Origin: Aquimarina latercula DSM 2041
GTDB lineage: Bacteria; Bacteroidota; Bacteroidia; Flavobacteriales; Flavobacteriaceae
Assembly: GCF_000430645.1 (NCBI RefSeq)
Contig: NZ_KE387185.1
Location: 1,213,780-1,277,779 of the forward strand
Reading direction: 5' to 3'
Length of the DNA stretch: 64,000 nucleotides
The stretch's first letter is position 1, and each line of letters starts with the position of its first letter. The position numbers were made by a program, and so were the translations under genes. This document shows, piece by piece, positions 6,628 to 35,969 of the stretch. Below the pieces are notes generated by a model that did no database searches, was not told the DNA's origin, and was given only the letters and a program-made list of their open reading frames with translations.

Positions 6628-7296
6628 TCAAATGAAATTAGAAGCTATTTTAATCGATTTTTTGGTGTTATTTAAGATGGCTTCATAATCAAAATTATCA
6701 TTAATATCTTTAGTAATTAATTTAGAACCCATACCTACACAATAAGCGCCAGAAGAAAACCATTTTGTTAGGTTATCTTCTTCTGGAGTAACTCCACCAC
6801 TAGGCATTATATGAGTCCAAGAACAAGGAGCTTTAATGGCTTTAATAAAATCGGGACCACCAATTTGACCAGCAGGAAATATTTTTACAATCTCGGCTCC
6901 TAATTCTTCTGCATAATTAATTTCACTTAAGGTTCCGCATCCAGGTAACCAGGCAACTTTTCTTCTATTACATACTTTAGCCATATCAGGATTCAGAACA
7001 GGGGAAACAATAAAATTAGCGCCATTTTGGATAAAAATGGAAGCTGTGCCTGAATCTACTACTGATCCAATGCCTAGTATCATATCCGGTAATTCTAGGT
7101 TCACCCATTTTATTAATTTTGAAAAAATTTCATGAGCATGATCTCCTCTGTTAGTAAATTCAAACACACGAGCACCTCCATCATAACAAGCTTTCAAGAC
7201 CTTTTTTGTTATAGTAATATCTTCGTGATAAAATAGAGGGACAATCTTTGTATTTCCCATTGTTTGCGCAACTTTTATTCTAGTATATTTTGCCAT
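6628..7296 (-). CDS. eda: 2-keto-3-deoxy-6-phosphogluconate (KDPG) aldolase
   Basis: This 222-residue class I aldolase splits KDPG (or the galactonate form) into pyruvate and glyceraldehyde 3-phosphate, the last step of anhydro-galactose breakdown. The Schiff-base Lys is K138 in I-V-K-I-F-P, and the proton-shuttling Glu is E46 in F-E-F-T-N-R. The G-G-V-T-P phosphate-binding loop is present near residue 168. The gene starts 2 nt after the stop of the sugar kinase, so the two are one operon. They lie far from the other anhydro-sugar genes, which are at 58-62 kb. No shared direct-repeat site was found upstream of this operon. Confidence 0.9.
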   Translation of the reverse strand: MAKYTRIKVAQTMGNTKIVPLFYHEDITITKKVLKACYDGGARVFEFTNRGDHAHEIFSKLIKWVNLELPDMILGIGSVVDSGTASIFIQNGANFIVSPVLNPDMAKVCNRRKVAWLPGCGTLSEINYAEELGAEIVKIFPAGQIGGPDFIKAIKAPCSWTHIMPSGGVTPEEDNLTKWFSSGAYCVGMGSKLITKDINDNFDYEAILNNTKKSIKIASNFI

Positions 7297-7298
7297 GT

Positions 7299-8303
7299 TT
7301 ATCTTTTTATTCTTCCTGTTAGATTTCCATCTATTACCGATACTATTTCCTCTTCGTTTACCAAATTAGCATCTCCTTCGATAGTATGTTTTAATGCGCA
7401 GGATGCGTTAGCAAATTGTAATGCTTTCTGATCATCATAATGTAATAGTCCATGAATCAACCCAGAGGCAAAGGCATCTCCAGTTCCGATTCTATCGACA
7501 ATATGAGTAATTTCTAATTCGCTAGTTTCATAAAAACCATTTCCATCACACATACGAGATTTTATCCTATGCCAATTGGCGTTTAAGGATACTCTGGTTT
7601 TGTCAAAAACCTTTTTTATGTAAGGAAACTTCTCCTGTAAATACTTACAACTTTTTATAAAATCATCTGTATCATTGGTAAATTCTGTGTTTAATAATTC
7701 ATTGATTTCATTCGGGCCACCAATAAAAATAGTTGATAAACCTGATAATTCAGATAGTGCTTCTTTGGCATCAATGCCATAATTCCAAAGGTTTTTCCTG
7801 TATGCAGGATCTGCAGAAACAGGGATCTTTTTTTTCTTGGCTACTAAAAGCGCATTTTTTAATCCTTTATAAGCTTCTTCCGATAATGCAGGTGTGATTC
7901 CTGTCCAATGAAACCAGTTACAGTACTCTAAAATTTGCTCCCAGTCCAGATCAGACCAGTCGATTTTAGAAAATGCAGAATGTGATCTATGATAGCTAAT
8001 AGTACTTGGTCGCATGACAGCACCGACTTCAAGAAAGTATAAACTTAAAGGATCTTCTGAGGTCTGCACAAAATTAGTGTTAACTCCATAAGTATTCAAA
8101 TAACTTGTGGCTGCTTTTCCAAGAAAGTCATTAGAGACCGCAGAAACATGATTTACTCCATTTCCTAATTGTGAAAGAGATATCGCTACATTCACCTCTG
8201 TTCCACCAAAATAATATTCCAATTGATTCGATTGGATGAGTTTTTTATTGCCAGGAGGTGAAATCCTCATAATAATCTCACCAAAGGTTACAACTTTTTT
8301 CAT
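7299..8303 (-). CDS. kdgK: 2-keto-3-deoxygluconate kinase (PfkB family)
   Basis: This 334-residue ribokinase/PfkB-fold enzyme is expected to phosphorylate 2-keto-3-deoxy-D-gluconate to KDPG for the aldolase encoded immediately downstream. The N-terminal substrate region has G-E-I-I-M-R-I-S and G-G-T-E-V-N-V-A near residues 8-40. The C-terminal signature D-R-I-G-T-G-D-A-F carries the catalytic base D276. The family also contains galactonate and fructose kinases. The substrate is inferred from the pairing with Eda and the agar/porphyran context. The short upstream region (8304-8429) has no obvious operator. Confidence 0.86.
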   Translation of the reverse strand: MKKVVTFGEIIMRISPPGNKKLIQSNQLEYYFGGTEVNVAISLSQLGNGVNHVSAVSNDFLGKAATSYLNTYGVNTNFVQTSEDPLSLYFLEVGAVMRPSTISYHRSHSAFSKIDWSDLDWEQILEYCNWFHWTGITPALSEEAYKGLKNALLVAKKKKIPVSADPAYRKNLWNYGIDAKEALSELSGLSTIFIGGPNEINELLNTEFTNDTDDFIKSCKYLQEKFPYIKKVFDKTRVSLNANWHRIKSRMCDGNGFYETSELEITHIVDRIGTGDAFASGLIHGLLHYDDQKALQFANASCALKHTIEGDANLVNEEEIVSVIDGNLTGRIKR

Positions 8304-8429
8304 CGAAAGGGTTTTGTTGTTCTCAAAGTAATTTATAGTAAACTAATTCGGTATTTTAGAACAAAATGTTGTACTTACTTTTTATGATTTCAAAATTACA
8401 TTTTTAAATGTAGAAAATACATTTATTTC

Positions 8430-30446: not shown

Positions 30447-30495
30447 CAAGCTTACTGAAAATGATAGTATTAACTATAAATTTACAAAGTTATTG

Positions 30496-31896
30496 ATGGT
30501 CACAAAATATAAAAGATGCTTACTGTTATTAATCGTTTTTTTTATTCGTACAATCATGAATTCTCAAGAACGTCCAAATATTATTTTGATTATTGCTGAT
30601 GATGCGGGATATGCAGACTTTGGTTTTCAGGGGATTAAGGTGATGAAAACTACGAATTTGGACCAATTTGCCAAAGAAGGAATGCGGTTTAATCAAGCGT
30701 ATGTCACTGCTGCGGTTTGCGGACCATCTAGAGCGGGAATATTAACAGGAAAGTATCAGCAAAAATTTGGTTTCGAAGAGAACAATGTGCCAGGATATAT
30801 GAGTAATTATTATATTGATGATGGCGAAATGAGGTTGCCTCTGGATCAAAAAACAATTACTGAATATTTAAAAGATTTAGGATATTGAACTGGCCTTTTT
30901 GGGAAATGGCATCAAGGAAATGCAGATCATTTTCATCCTACCAAAAGAGGTTTTGACGAATTCTACAGTTTTAGAGGAGGAGCACGTAGTTACTTCGAAT
31001 ATGATGAGAATAATCCAATATCAAGAGTTGAAGATTTATTAGAAACAGGTTTTCGAAAATTTGGTGAGACAGAAGAATATTTAACGTACAGTTTTGCAAA
31101 AGCTACAGTCAACTTTATAGAGCAAAATAAAGAGACTCCATTTTTTGCCATGTTGGCCTTTAATTCTGTACATACTCCTATGGAAGCAACTAAAGAAGAC
31201 CTACAACAGTTCCCCGAGTTAAAAGGTAAAAGAAAACAACTTGCAGCAATGACTTTGGCTATGGATAGGGCTTGTAAACTAGTTTTTGACAAAGTAAAAG
31301 AACTGGGTTTGGAAGAAAATACTTTAATTGTATTTACTAATGATAATGGAGGCCCTTCAGATACAAATGCTTCAGACAATAAACCTCTAAGTGGAACCAA
31401 AGCCAATCATCTGGAAGGAGGGATCAGAGTTCCATATATAATGAAATGGAAGGGGGTAATACCCAAAGGTAGAAATTACGATTTTCCGATTAGTACGTTT
31501 GATTTATTGCCAACCTTTTACTCTTTGGGAGACGGTGATTTAGAGGATTTAGAAGATATTGACGGGGTGAATTTGTTTCCTTTTATTTTACAAAAAGATA
31601 AAAATCGACCGCACGAAACACTTTTTTGGAAGAAAGAAAATAGAGGTGTTGTTCGGCAAGGAGATTGGAAATTACTTAGATATCCTGATAGGCCAGCGGA
31701 GCTGTATTACCTTCCCGAAGATATTTCGGAAAATAATGATTTAGCCTTTAAATATCCCGAAAAAGTAAAAGAATTATACAAACTACTATTTCAATGGGAA
31801 TTAACATTAAAAAGACCAAGATGGCAGTTAAAACGGATGTATGAAGGTAAAGCTATAGAAAGAATGGATCAATACAGGATTAGAAAAAAGAACTAA
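30496..31896 (+). pseudogene. S1-family sulfatase interrupted by an in-frame TGA
   Basis: The frame encodes a secreted formylglycine sulfatase: signal peptide, the metal-binding [13 protein letters not shown] motif, and the activation site [11 protein letters not shown] with the Cys that becomes formylglycine. At 30886-30888 TGA interrupts the stretch D-L-G-Y-(stop)-T-G-L-F-G-K-W-H. The same frame then runs on without another stop to 31896 with normal sulfatase sequence (F-T-N-D-N-G-G, L-E-G-G-I-R-V-P). Relatives have Lys or Arg at the stop, so CGA or AGA to TGA is the simplest origin. The start is placed at ATG 30496 rather than the TTG one codon earlier. Its likely target was a sulfated galactan unit. 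It is the only sulfatase in the window. Confidence 0.85.
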
Positions 31897-31934: not shown

Positions 31935-32636
31935 TTATCCTTTAAATATAAAACTTTGATCTGTTTCCATTTCATAGTCAAACTCATATAAATAAGCACC
32001 TTTCTTGGAACTGGATTTATCTTTAATTTCTGTTTTTTTCAAAAAGTTTAGCGATAATAATTTTTTTCTAAAGTTTCTAGAATCCAGTTTTTTCTGAAAG
32101 ATCTGCTCGTATAAGGTTTGAATTTGAGGTAAAGTAAAGTGCTTCGGAAGTAACTCAAAACCAATTGGAGAAAATCTAGCCTTTTCACGTAGTCTATCCA
32201 GCGCATCTTTTACCATTTGATTATGGTCTAATACTAATTCTGGTAACTCATCTAGCGAAAACCAAAATGCACCATGTTTATTCACTAGTTCTTTATTATT
32301 CTCATCGATTCGGATTAGAGCATATTGGCCAATAGAAATACAGCGTGCTCCAGGATCTCTATCGACTGCTGAGTAGGTCTTTAGCTCTTCCATAAAAATG
32401 TTTTCCAGACCTGTAATATCTTTTAAGATTCTTAAACCAGCTTGATTAGCATTTTCATTTTGTCTGATAAAACTTCCAATCAAAGACCATGAACCTTTTA
32501 GAGGTTGTATTTCTCGCTTAAAAACAAGAAGTTTTAAAGTTTCATTGTCAAATCCAAAGATGATACAGTCTACAGCAACCAATACCTGCTCCTTATTTTC
32601 GTACCAACTATTTTGCTGATTTTTGGCAAACTCCAT
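31935..32636 (-). CDS. Nudix-type (NrtR/AraR-like) transcription regulator of galactose genes
   Basis: This 233-residue protein combines an N-terminal Nudix fold (about residues 15-150) with a C-terminal winged helix (about 160-225), the layout of NrtR and of the Bacteroidetes arabinose regulator AraR. The Nudix box around G-S-F-I-R-Q-N-E-N-A-N-Q-A-G lacks the R-E-x-x-E-E catalytic residues (it reads R-I-L-K-D-I), so it should sense a ligand rather than hydrolyse one. It is transcribed divergently from galK with 72 nt between. That gap contains a 31-bp palindrome over the galK -7 element, which is its probable operator. Control by galactose or a derivative is inferred. Confidence 0.82.
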   Translation of the reverse strand: MEFAKNQQNSWYENKEQVLVAVDCIIFGFDNETLKLLVFKREIQPLKGSWSLIGSFIRQNENANQAGLRILKDITGLENIFMEELKTYSAVDRDPGARCISIGQYALIRIDENNKELVNKHGAFWFSLDELPELVLDHNQMVKDALDRLREKARFSPIGFELLPKHFTLPQIQTLYEQIFQKKLDSRNFRKKLLSLNFLKKTEIKDKSSSKKGAYLYEFDYEMETDQSFIFKG

Positions 32637-32652
32637 AAAATATTCTTTAAAA

Positions 32653-32687
32653 AATAATAAACGTAATAATTACATTTATTATTTTTG
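32653..32687 (+). promoter_or_regulatory. 31-bp palindromic operator overlapping the galK promoter
   Basis: AATAATAAACGTAAT (32653-32667), one central base, then ATTACATTTATTATT (32669-32683) form an almost perfect palindrome with one mismatch per arm. TATTTTTG (32680-32687) is a TAnnTTTG -7 element overlapping the right arm, and the galK ATG lies 22 nt further on. Binding here would block galK transcription, and the site is placed to autoregulate the Nudix gene. Confidence 0.7.
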
Positions 32688-32708
32688 TTATAAATAAAGG
32701 TTTTAATA

Positions 32709-33857
32709 ATGAACAAAGAAAATACATTTATCCCAGAGCTCATAGTATCTTCTCCAGGTAGAATAAATTTTATGGGTGGTCATACGGATTATAACAATGG
32801 TTTTGTACTTCCTACTGCTATTGATAAAAAAATACGTTTTGAGTTTAAAAAAAATGGAACAGCGGATACTTGTAATTTCTATAGTAGAAATTATGATAAA
32901 TCCTTGAGAGTAGATCTAAATAATATTTCACCTAGCACAGAAAATTGGGAAAATTATATTTTAGGTGTACTACATCAGCTATCTAAAAGATCAGATAAGA
33001 TTCGAGGTTTTGATTGTTTCTTTTCTAGCGAATTGGCAATTGGCTCTGGATTAAGTTCGTCTGCTGCTCTAGAGTGTGGTCTTGCTTACGGTGTAAATTC
33101 ATTGTTTGAGTTAGGGCTTTCTAAAAAAGACATCACTGTATTAAGTAGAGATGCAGAGCATGAATATGTTGGTACTAAATGCGGTATAATGGATCAGTAT
33201 GCTTCTGTTTTTAGTGAAACAAACAAAATTCTATTTCTTGATTGTCAATCTCTAGAACACAGTTTAATTCCAATTGATTTAGTGGATTATAAAATACTAA
33301 TTCTAAATACCAATGTAGAACATAACCTGGCTACTAGCGAGTATAACGTTAGAAGACAACAATGCGAGGAAGGAGTGGTTTTTATAAAAAAAAGACATCC
33401 ACATGTTTCGTCTCTTAGAGACGTTAATTTAGATATGTTAGAAGAGGTAAAAGGTGAAGTAAGTCAAACTGTTTTCCAAAGATGTCAATATATTATCCAA
33501 GAAAATAAAAGAGTTTTAGCGGCTGCTGAGTTTTTAAAAAATAACGAGCTAAATGAATTTGGAGATCTTTTATATCAATGTCATGATGGAATTCGACATA
33601 AGTACGAAGTTAGTTGTGATGAATTAGATTTTTTAGTGGATTTCTCCAAAGAAAAAGAATATGTAATTGGATCCAGAATGATGGGTGGAGGTTTTGGAGG
33701 CTGCACAGTAAATATAGTGCATAAAGATTATATCAATGCGTATACAGAAGAAGTGGGTTTAGTATATAAAGAACGATTTAATATCGATTTAGATGCTTTT
33801 CAGGTAATGCCATGCAAAGGAACAAGTATCGAGTTTACAGAGTCTAAAGTATCATAG
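32709..33857 (+). CDS. galK: Galactokinase
   Basis: This 382-residue GHMP-family enzyme phosphorylates galactose to galactose 1-phosphate in the cytoplasm, the entry of the Leloir pathway. The galactokinase signature is G-R-I-N-F-M-G-G-H-T-D-Y-N near residue 17-29 and the ATP-binding loop is G-S-G-L-S-S-S-A-A. G-G-G-F-G-G-C-T near residue 325-332 is the third GHMP motif. The signature has Gly where galactokinases commonly have Glu (G-E-H-T-D). galT follows 20 nt downstream. Galactose would come from the agar/porphyran oligosaccharides via the GH2 enzyme. Confidence 0.94.
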   Translation: MNKENTFIPELIVSSPGRINFMGGHTDYNNGFVLPTAIDKKIRFEFKKNGTADTCNFYSRNYDKSLRVDLNNISPSTENWENYILGVLHQLSKRSDKIRGFDCFFSSELAIGSGLSSSAALECGLAYGVNSLFELGLSKKDITVLSRDAEHEYVGTKCGIMDQYASVFSETNKILFLDCQSLEHSLIPIDLVDYKILILNTNVEHNLATSEYNVRRQQCEEGVVFIKKRHPHVSSLRDVNLDMLEEVKGEVSQTVFQRCQYIIQENKRVLAAAEFLKNNELNEFGDLLYQCHDGIRHKYEVSCDELDFLVDFSKEKEYVIGSRMMGGGFGGCTVNIVHKDYINAYTEEVGLVYKERFNIDLDAFQVMPCKGTSIEFTESKVS

Positions 33858-33877: not shown

Positions 33878-34909
33878 ATGATTAACGAAAATCCTCATAG
33901 AAGATATAACATACTAACAGGAGAATGGGTTTTAGTATCTCCTCATCGTACCAAAAGGCCATGGCAAGGAAAAGAAGAAAAACAATCCATAGCCAAGAGA
34001 CCTTCTTACGATCCTAATTGCTATCTGTGTCCAGGAAATACCAGAGCAAGCGGAGCTACAAATCCGCAATATGATGAACCTTATAGTTTTGTAAATGACT
34101 TTTCTGCATTGTTGTCTGAAACTCCAAAAGAGGTTTTTTCTGAAGGGTTGCTGAAGGGAATGTCTGAAAGAGGGATTTGTAAAGTAGTTTGCTTTTCTCC
34201 TGATCATTCTTTGACATTACCCATAATGAAGGTGGAAGAGATTCAGAATGTTGTTAAGCTATGGAAAAGAGAATACGAGGAATTAAGTGAGGTGTCATAT
34301 ATTAATCATATTCAAATATTTGAGAATAAAGGAGATGTCATGGGGTGCAGTAATCCGCATCCTCATGGGCAAATATGGGCTCAGGAGTCTATCCCGCTAG
34401 AAGTTTCTAAGAAAACAGAGCAAATGAAGAAGTATTGGCTTGATAAGAATCAAAGTTTACTAAAAGCCTACTTAAAACAAGAATTAGAGACTAGAGAAAG
34501 AATAATTTTAGAAAATGATCACTTCGTTTCTCTGGTACCGTATTGGGCGATTTGGCCTTATGAAGCTATGATATTACCAAAAGAACATAAACGAAGTATT
34601 AAAGAGCTAAATGAAGAGGAAATAGCTTCGTTTGCACAAATAATAAAGGATTTGACAATTAGATATGATAATTTATTCAATTGTAGTTTTCCATATTCTG
34701 CAGGAATTCATCAAGCACCAACAGATGGAGGCCTTCATGAAGAATGGCACTTTCATATGTCTTTTTATCCTCCATTATTAAGATCAGCAACTGTAAAAAA
34801 GTTTATGGTAGGTTATGAGATGTTTGCAGATCCACAACGCGATATTACGGCAGAGCAAGCAGCAGGAACTTTAAAATCCTTATCAACGTTGCATTATACC
34901 ATTCAATAA
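33878..34909 (+). CDS. galT: Galactose-1-phosphate uridylyltransferase
   Basis: This 343-residue HIT-superfamily enzyme exchanges UMP between UDP-glucose and galactose 1-phosphate. The active-site motif N-P-H-P-H-G-Q is present near residues 158-164, and two Cys in C-Y-L-C-P-G (about 49-54) are the usual zinc ligands. A second zinc/iron-like site is suggested by H-E-E-W-H-F-H near the C-terminus. It follows galK by 20 nt and precedes a LacI-type regulator by 31 nt: one operon. Confidence 0.94.
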   Translation: MINENPHRRYNILTGEWVLVSPHRTKRPWQGKEEKQSIAKRPSYDPNCYLCPGNTRASGATNPQYDEPYSFVNDFSALLSETPKEVFSEGLLKGMSERGICKVVCFSPDHSLTLPIMKVEEIQNVVKLWKREYEELSEVSYINHIQIFENKGDVMGCSNPHPHGQIWAQESIPLEVSKKTEQMKKYWLDKNQSLLKAYLKQELETRERIILENDHFVSLVPYWAIWPYEAMILPKEHKRSIKELNEEEIASFAQIIKDLTIRYDNLFNCSFPYSAGIHQAPTDGGLHEEWHFHMSFYPPLLRSATVKKFMVGYEMFADPQRDITAEQAAGTLKSLSTLHYTIQ

Positions 34910-34940: not shown

Positions 34941-35969
34941 ATGAGTAATCAAATGATGACATTAAAAAAACTTGCAGAGCTGTCGAATTTTTCGGTTTCC
35001 ACTGTGTCTAAAGCACTAGCTGATAATCCTGAGATTAGTATAAAGACCAAAAATAAAATCAAAAAGCTGGCAGAATTTTACAATTATAGACCAAACATAA
35101 CTGCCAAAAACCTAAAAGAGAGAAAAACGAGAGTAATAGGAGTGATCATTCCTAATATTTTGGCACATTTTTTTGCCAAAGTATTATCCGGTATTGAAAA
35201 AGAAGCAACGGATAAAGGATACAATATTATTACCTGTATCTCTGATGAATCTTTTGAAAAGGAAGTGAAAAGTATAGAAATGCTTGCAAACGGTAGTGTT
35301 GATGGGTTTATCATATCGATATCTAAAGAGACTTTTGTAAAAGAAAATTATAAGCATTTACAAAGTGTTATTGATAAAGGATTACCTATATCAATGTTTG
35401 ATAGAGTAACAGATAAAGTCTACTGCGATAAAGTTGTTATTAACGATTTTCAATCTTCTTATATCGCTACCGAAAAATTAATCAAATCTGGGTGCAAAAA
35501 TATTGTTTTTGTTACTCCAATTCATCACACAAGTGTTGGATTAGATAGGGTTAATGGATATGAAAAAGCATTAAAAGACATATTAAAAAGAAAAGGAAAA
35601 CCTAAGGTTTTGATTATTGAAAATTACCAAAAATTCACAGATAACTTCTCAGAGTTTCTTAATGAAAATAAAGTGGACGGTATCGTTGCAGCTGATGAAC
35701 TTTCTGGAATTTACACAATGAATTTGTTAATTGGAGCGGGTCTTAGAGTTCCCGAAGATGTTTCTGTTATTGGTTTTACTGATGGAATTCTTGCGGGTAA
35801 TAGTAATCCTCCATTGACAACTATAGATCAAAGAGCGGTAGAACTTGGAAAAGTAGCTGCTAGTAATATAATTAGTAGATTAGAAGACAACCAGAAGGAA
35901 GCCATTACCTTTGAAACTACAGTACTGGAAACTTATCTAATAGAAAGAAGTTCTACAAAATTTAAGTAG
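34941..35969 (+). CDS. LacI/GalR-family transcription regulator
   Basis: This 342-residue protein has an N-terminal LacI helix-turn-helix (L-A-E-L-S-N-F-S-V-S-T-V-S-K-A-L, residues about 10-26), a hinge (N-L-K-E-R-K-T) and a periplasmic-binding-protein-like sensor domain (R-V-I-G-V-I-I-P-N to the C-terminus). It is the third gene of the galK-galT transcript, so it may respond to a galactan sugar. Its operator is not evident: no LacI-type GC-centred palindrome was found near the operons of the locus. The ATG at 34941 is used; an ATG four codons later is possible. Confidence 0.9.
   Translation: MSNQMMTLKKLAELSNFSVSTVSKALADNPEISIKTKNKIKKLAEFYNYRPNITAKNLKERKTRVIGVIIPNILAHFFAKVLSGIEKEATDKGYNIITCISDESFEKEVKSIEMLANGSVDGFIISISKETFVKENYKHLQSVIDKGLPISMFDRVTDKVYCDKVVINDFQSSYIATEKLIKSGCKNIVFVTPIHHTSVGLDRVNGYEKALKDILKRKGKPKVLIIENYQKFTDNFSEFLNENKVDGIVAADELSGIYTMNLLIGAGLRVPEDVSVIGFTDGILAGNSNPPLTTIDQRAVELGKVAASNIISRLEDNQKEAITFETTVLETYLIERSSTKFK

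Follow-up and report, generated by a model that had tools for sequence, protein, structure and literature searches.

Introduction

AraR and XylR are described as sugar-responsive members of the NrtR family of Nudix-related transcription factors (PMC3878776). BtAraR of Bacteroides thetaiotaomicron (BT0354; structures 5bs6, 5dd4, 5ddg and 5deq) is an arabinose repressor that is released from DNA by L-arabinose (PMC4666351). XylR (BT0791) is the corresponding Nudix-related regulator of xylose utilisation in Bacteroidetes (PMC3878776, PMC4666351), but it belongs to a separate branch reported to be 33% identical to BtAraR (PMC4666351), and it is on this description that it is set apart from the regulator considered here. 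SoNrtR and other ADP-ribose-responsive NrtR proteins share the same two-domain build (3gz5 matches our regulator at E=2e-20), but they act on NAD genes in response to a nucleotide effector, and the space for ADP is closed in BtAraR (PMC4666351). For marine Bacteroidetes growing on agar, porphyran and carrageenan, control of the central galactose pathway is little described in the literature examined. In work on carrageenan use in Zobellia the regulator named is of the AraC type, and galactose is expected to be handled by the Leloir pathway (PMC5698469); gal loci carrying regulators of other families are described (PMC5507952). A paper on Aquimarina ERC-38 names galactokinase and uridylyltransferase, and neither "regulator" nor "nudix" occurs in its main text (PMC10163077).

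The window analysed here is a stretch of 64,000 nt from Aquimarina latercula DSM 2041, in which a Nudix-type regulator gene lies back to back with galK. GalR, GalS and other LacI-type repressors perform galactose-relieved repression of Leloir genes, the same task that we propose below, but have an unrelated fold and operator. We consider it probable, at about 0.68, that the regulator is a galactose-relieved dimeric NrtR-family repressor of galKT and of its own gene, acting on a palindrome centred at position 32668. The earlier note on this DNA had anticipated that a galactose-responsive member would be new, and none appears among the matches listed in open PMC full text; the effector in our case is a prediction.

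A diverged NrtR-family regulator beside galK and galT

The regulator (31935..32636, minus strand, 233 aa) is assigned by homology and Pfam to the AraR/NrtR family and has its characteristic layout of a Nudix-like sensor domain followed by an NrtR winged helix. BtAraR (5bs6) matches it at E=7.1e-69 across residues 6-221 of 233, amounting to full-length homology and in agreement with the earlier placement in a family known for arabinose in Bacteroides, and the NUDIX (30.3 bits), AraR_C (50.5 bits) and NrtR_WHD (84.9 bits) profiles each exceed their Pfam cut-offs, which confirms the Nudix-type designation. The Nudix box reads GSFIRQNENANQAGLRILKDITGL, where the RE..EE core has become RI..DI through replacement of three Glu by I70, D73 and I74; the loss of catalytic residues noted from the letters is thus real, and a dead Nudix box is a feature shared with BtAraR. 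In the tree, the regulator falls within a 53-row clade with moderate support (SH-aLRT 86), outside the separate 32-row clade that holds BtAraR (SH-aLRT 92). Either galK or galT adjoins 34 of the 53 rows and an arabinose-context label is found on none. With this moderate clade support, the protein appears to belong to a sister lineage of AraR within the NrtR family. Both clades exclude seven Chitinophaga rows (V36, G48, F129, K179), which match neither type. The genome also encodes a more distant family member (L003), 37% identical and flanked by ORFs resembling aconitase and ribose-phosphate pyrophosphokinase by eye, and similar members of 34-38% identity recur in many genomes of the genus.

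The gene for galactokinase (galK, 32709..33857, plus strand; TIGR00131, 301.6 bits against a cut-off of 226.65) is followed by that for UDP-glucose--hexose-1-phosphate uridylyltransferase (galT, 33878..34909, plus strand; NF008724, 509 bits against 448) and by a LacI-type regulator gene identified by profile match (34941..35969, plus strand). Arabinose catabolic genes are not linked to the regulator, galK and galT being present instead, and the regulator-galK pair is a recurring unit in several genera. A relative of the LacI-type gene occurs within 4 kb in only 4 of 18 divergent loci from Aquimarina, Salinimicrobium, Christiangramia, Gramella, Tenacibaculum and one Bacteroidota MAG, and hence this gene is not a general partner of the operator described below.

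A conserved palindrome at a fixed distance from a predicted galK -7 box

The ORFs at 31935-32636 (minus) and 32709-33857 (plus) leave a divergent gap of 72 nt, as had been stated previously. The predicted operator within it (32650..32686) consists of two 18-nt arms (32650-32667 and 32669-32686) around A32668, with 17 of the 18 positions paired (94%); the single mismatch sets C32662 against A32674, and position 32662 is T in the close relatives G009 (L004) and G065 (L153). The earlier description of two 15-bp arms (32653-32667 and 32669-32683) was right as to the palindrome itself but not as to its extent, since only 14 of those 15 positions pair and the true repeat is longer. The conserved 25-bp core, AATAAACGTA-N5-TACATTTATT, covers 32656-32680. 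The right arm overlaps TATTTTTG (32680..32687, plus strand), as reported earlier, by 4 nt when the shorter arm is taken and by 7 nt for the full arm. From its fixed offset and its consensus, TATTTTTG is taken as the -7 box (TAnnTTTG) of a predicted galK promoter and starts 12 nt from the operator centre. In flavobacterial sigma-A promoters TAnnTTTG forms the -7 box and occupies -12 to -5 (PMC9723704), which places the operator centre at about -24. A mirrored -7-like box, TATTTTTT, is present on the regulator side at the same offset of 12 (32649..32656, minus strand), and a full TAnnTTTG is found at this mirrored place in L002, L007, L156, L162 and L068. The araM operon controlled by BtAraR carries a tandem operator pair, whereas here a single operator sits between divergent promoters.

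Taken alone, the palindrome is only moderately unlikely, as dinucleotide shuffling of the gap reaches its score 13 times in 5000 and four palindromes scoring at least 13 occur within the 64-kb window; it is judged to be real because of its conservation. This was assessed in 40 divergent regulator-galK gaps, comprising 22 loci from 21 genomes of the genus (including L011, whose galK is decayed) and the 18 further loci introduced above, with the same-strand arrangements L073, L076, L089, L091, L112 and L115 kept outside the set and a gap scored as keeping the operator at 12 or more of 14 matches to the pattern with position 7 free. The operator is kept in 36 of the 40, and the same 36 have TAnnTTTG exactly 12 nt to the galK side of the centre; the exceptions (L049, L053, L056 and L084) score 11 and are without the box. 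Five pairs of gaps are identical, and of the resulting 35 distinct stretches 31 retain both operator and box. Conservation in related gaps was the test by which the earlier note proposed that its palindrome could be refuted, and on these counts the palindrome stands.

A second operator-like site, mostly with TTGT on its left, is seen in L046, L051-L055, L057, L058, L060, L067, L069 and L071, about 716-959 nt past the regulator start, just after the regulator and before the next gene, which encodes a TIM-barrel protein in most cases. These sites 3' of the regulator occur in Salegentibacter, Christiangramia, Salinimicrobium and Gramella.

Co-occurrence of operator and regulator in the genus

At a threshold of E up to 1e-50, 21 of 66 genomes of the genus carry the regulator. 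The 25-bp site AATAAAYGTA-N5-TACATTTATT is found with no mismatch in 20 of these 21 and in none of the 45 regulator-free genomes (Fisher 5e-16, kinship ignored), and in the remaining regulator-bearing genome, G056, it lies beside the regulator with one mismatch. Every regulator-bearing genome has galK, as do 27 of the 45 others (48 genomes in total); none of these 27 has the site, and so galK alone does not bring it along. The co-occurrence is not fully independent evidence, since the regulator moves together with its operator and galK as a single cassette. In G014, a regulator copy broken by stops (C1:1197361-1198028, L180) lies beside a perfect site and an intact galK, and an intact regulator on C7 (L011) lies beside a site with two mismatches and a decayed galK, a split arrangement of the kind that control in trans would allow. 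Family, operator, conservation, promoter position and the link to the regulator are the points that the sequences themselves show.

Residue 179 and the outer base of the operator

The operator in the solved BtAraR complex is GTGT-N7-ACAC, the outer G of which (G7) is read by Lys179 (PMC4666351). The centre-matched letters of the galactose-type site are ATGT-N7-ACAT, with ACGT on the left in the window itself, such that the TGT-N7-ACA spacing is common to both and the outer G.C is replaced by A.T. On the protein side, R180, N181, K184 and K204 are kept, but K179 has become S186; R205 is K212. The relation was followed in 80 loci, the best of 589 confirmed stretches when ranked by their similarity to galactose-type queries; by context, 24 of them have galK/galT only and 23 arabinose genes only, and 33 with neither or both were set aside. 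Lys179 is absent in 22 of the 24 galactose-context loci of this set, and G at position 7 is found in 30 of 58 half-sites where residue 179 is Lys and in 7 of 72 where that residue is something other than Lys or Arg (Fisher 1.5e-7, kinship ignored); loci that lack Lys179 have A or T at the outer position in most cases. Counted by locus (n=57, with 11 rows taken from the divergent-gap set), residue and base agree in 34+15 cases and disagree in 8. One member of the galactose clade, L074, has Lys179 and a site of the form GTGT..ACAC. Tests on independent pairs, applied to residue 179 against base 7 and to residues against gene context, hold only one to three pairs and cannot reach significance, and the residue-base link is a lead rather than proof because the tree shows roughly one event seen many times. 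Both this link and that between residues and gene context come down to roughly a single deep split in the tree.

The sugar pocket

The arabinose-contacting residues R34, R86 and H131 of BtAraR are kept as R41, R93 and H138, as are the wall residues Y5, G47 and F49, whereas F36, G48, V92 and F129 are replaced by I43, S55, C99 and L136. These four residues sit near C2, C4 and C5 of arabinose in BtAraR (PMC4666351). The replacements follow gene context within the same best 80 of 589 stretches. Of the 24 galactose-context loci, 23 have Leu at position 129, 19 have Ser at position 48 and 23 have V/I/L at position 36; of the 23 arabinose-context loci, 22 have Phe at 129, 22 have Gly at 48 and 21 have F/M at 36. 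A wider wall at C5 fits galactose, because L-arabinopyranose is galactopyranose without C6. Counter-examples are also present: in Parabacteroides (L112 and L115), galK directly precedes a regulator with an arabinose-type pocket, and L105, beside araA/D/B, has Y36, S48 and L129. The gene order of the two Parabacteroides loci is epimerase-MFS-galK-AraR-type regulator-transketolase, and a GH51-like stretch lies near that of L112. As the protein itself fills the phosphate and base spaces in BtAraR (PMC4666351, section 14), galactose 1-phosphate and UDP-galactose look less likely as effectors, though F36, one of the residues that fill these spaces, is changed here. Gene context and pocket changes together point to free D-galactose as the most likely effector.

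An agar/porphyran locus and a patchy outer regulon

The window contains Pfam porphyranase domains, a GH16 domain, CBM6, sulfatase genes and two relatives of a beta-agarase-D-like protein, and for this reason reads as an agar/porphyran locus. A sulfatase-like gene at 30493-31896 is split into two ORFs (30493-30888 and 31150-31896, with the sulfatase match coming from the second) and may therefore be broken.

A motif scan of the genome allowing up to two mismatches finds three places: the regulator-galK gap of the window, the corresponding gap in L002, where a second such pair lies outside the window with a regulator 73% identical to the first, and a third operator-like site in the window at 8403..8427 (minus strand, two mismatches), which the earlier note does not mention. 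The centre of this third site lies 112 nt before the ATG of a PfkB sugar kinase gene (7299..8303, minus strand), whose closest solved relative is 2-keto-3-deoxygluconate kinase, with TAATTTTG at 8391-8398 on the minus strand; a KHG/KDPG aldolase gene is encoded next to it (6628..7296, minus strand; NF005499, 344.9 bits against a cut-off of 275). Among the 23 kinase loci scored of 30 retrieved, the site reaches 15 of 16 in G000, 14 in G009 and 13 in G065, and 9 to 12 in the other 20. It is taken as no more than a possible operator.

A count of extra sites, defined as those with up to two mismatches outside the regulator gaps, gives 28 for the 21 genomes that carry the regulator and 18 for the remaining 45 (binomial 5e-5, kinship and genome size ignored). 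Nineteen of the 28 were examined, namely the window's own and 18 others mostly chosen for low mismatch and thus not random, and 12 of these 18 precede genes for glycan enzymes or sugar transport; six do not, two of them being intragenic. The genes preceded include GH16-type or beta-agarase-D-like genes (L163, L164, L165, L169, L172 and L177), a GH3 gene (L168), genes for heparinase-like or lectin-domain proteins (L167 and L171), and genes for a sodium symporter (L170 and L182) and a glucose/galactose-type MFS carrier (L174). Not all of these labels are strong: L165 matches GH16, and L171 heparinase, at scores below the Pfam cut-off, and the L169 and L172 proteins are labelled by N-terminal likeness to L165 alone. 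None of the 18 control sites in the 45 regulator-free genomes precedes a recognised glycan or sugar-transport gene and 10 are intragenic, the neighbours having been scanned for five genes and otherwise judged by orientation and N-terminal letters.

A genus-wide regulon that includes the sodium symporter and the GluP-like MFS carrier was considered and rejected. A site of at least 13 of 16 is present at 2 of 19 symporter copies (11+8) in regulator-bearing genomes, and the best among 22 copies from other genomes scores 12 of 16; the corresponding values for the carrier are 1 of 6, and 12 for the best of 12 others. None of the four transporter copies examined in the A. latercula genome has a good site. 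As the symporter and carrier orthologues of most regulator-bearing genomes are without such a site, the core comprises the regulator and galKT, with a patchy outer part. Genes for agarases, other glycoside hydrolases or transporters seem to have joined the regulon in some genomes, and the spread from a sugar-utilisation context to polysaccharide genes resembles that known for BtAraR.

Discussion

From these features we infer dimerisation, DNA binding, repression and the response to a sugar. The dead Nudix domain would sense a sugar of the galactose pathway, most likely free D-galactose. When free of sugar, a dimer would occupy the palindrome with its centre about 24 nt upstream of the galK transcription start and reach two -7 elements, that of galK and the mirrored one on the regulator side, so that galKT and the regulator would be blocked. 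Galactose freed from agar or porphyran would enter the cell, bind in the pocket around R41, R93 and H138, and turn the winged helices off the DNA, as L-arabinose does in BtAraR.

Two rival readings concern the effector. A conventional AraR that has kept its response to L-arabinose and neighbours galK by accident would be in keeping with BtAraR as the closest solved relative and with the three polar arabinose-binding residues being kept. L-arabinose and D-galactose also have the same ring configuration at C2-C4. The separate clade, with galK or galT at 34 of its 53 rows and no arabinose context, and the changes at F36, G48 and F129 around C2, C4 and C5 of arabinose nevertheless make an arabinose sensor improbable. 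Galactose 1-phosphate, UDP-galactose or another algal sugar such as 3,6-anhydro-L-galactose could be the effector instead, given the porphyranase, GH16 and KDG-type kinase genes of the locus and the third site before the kinase, and given that Ile here replaces F36, the residue filling the phosphate space of BtAraR (PMC4666351). Such an effector appears rather unlikely, as the regulator-galK pair recurs as a unit across several genera, the kinase site is kept only in three close genomes, and Tyr5 and Gly89, which help to close the nucleotide space in BtAraR (PMC4666351), are retained.

Other readings concern the palindrome itself. It might be owned by the LacI-type regulator that follows galT, or by a Crp-like factor, for which a palindrome at Bacteroides sugar operons is described (PMC3878776). 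Ownership by either is very unlikely and was rejected, in view of the rarity of LacI-type relatives (4 of 18 loci, as against the operator in 14 of 18), the absence of the perfect site from all 45 genomes without the Nudix-type regulator, most of which presumably have a Crp-like factor, and a spacing equal to that of the BtAraR DNA complex. The near-exclusive A and T content of the palindrome and its occasional recovery in shuffled gaps would suit a terminator, an RNA hairpin or a chance product of AT-rich DNA, but its position between two divergent starts and the conservation of its letters at a fixed distance from the -7 box in 36 of 40 gaps leave such an origin with a negligible probability, and it too was rejected.

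Beyond the single locus, a galactose-sensing repressor on this palindrome may exemplify a wider class of Nudix repressors across Bacteroidota, derived from a stock shared with AraR. We propose this only tentatively, at somewhat less than even odds. Its pocket would have changed from F36 to I/V, G48 to S and F129 to L, giving room for the CH2OH of galactose, and its DNA contact would have been rewired by the loss of both Lys179 and G7. Degraders of red-algal galactans might then have enlarged the galactose regulon by drawing in agarases, symporters and perhaps genes of the anhydrogalactose branch. A candidate galactose regulator is now at hand together with an operator of fixed promoter position, a short list of residues expected to set the choice of sugar and of DNA, and in G014 a genome with a split pair, and the predicted pocket makes the solved arabinose sensor a template for a galactose sensor.

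The gap of the second regulator-galK pair (L002, 1421-1500) is itself a 71-nt palindrome with fully paired 33-nt arms around a 5-nt centre. The first aligned codon of its regulator is ATA where relatives have ATG, with no in-frame start in the 60 nt before it, and in the close relative L006 the left arm is less symmetric (28 of 48 positions paired, against 36). The palindrome looks like a templated copy of the galK-side arm that also altered the start codon. The gaps of L007 and L156 likewise hold long near-perfect palindromes that extend past the core, and as their letters differ from those of L002, copying of arms may recur.
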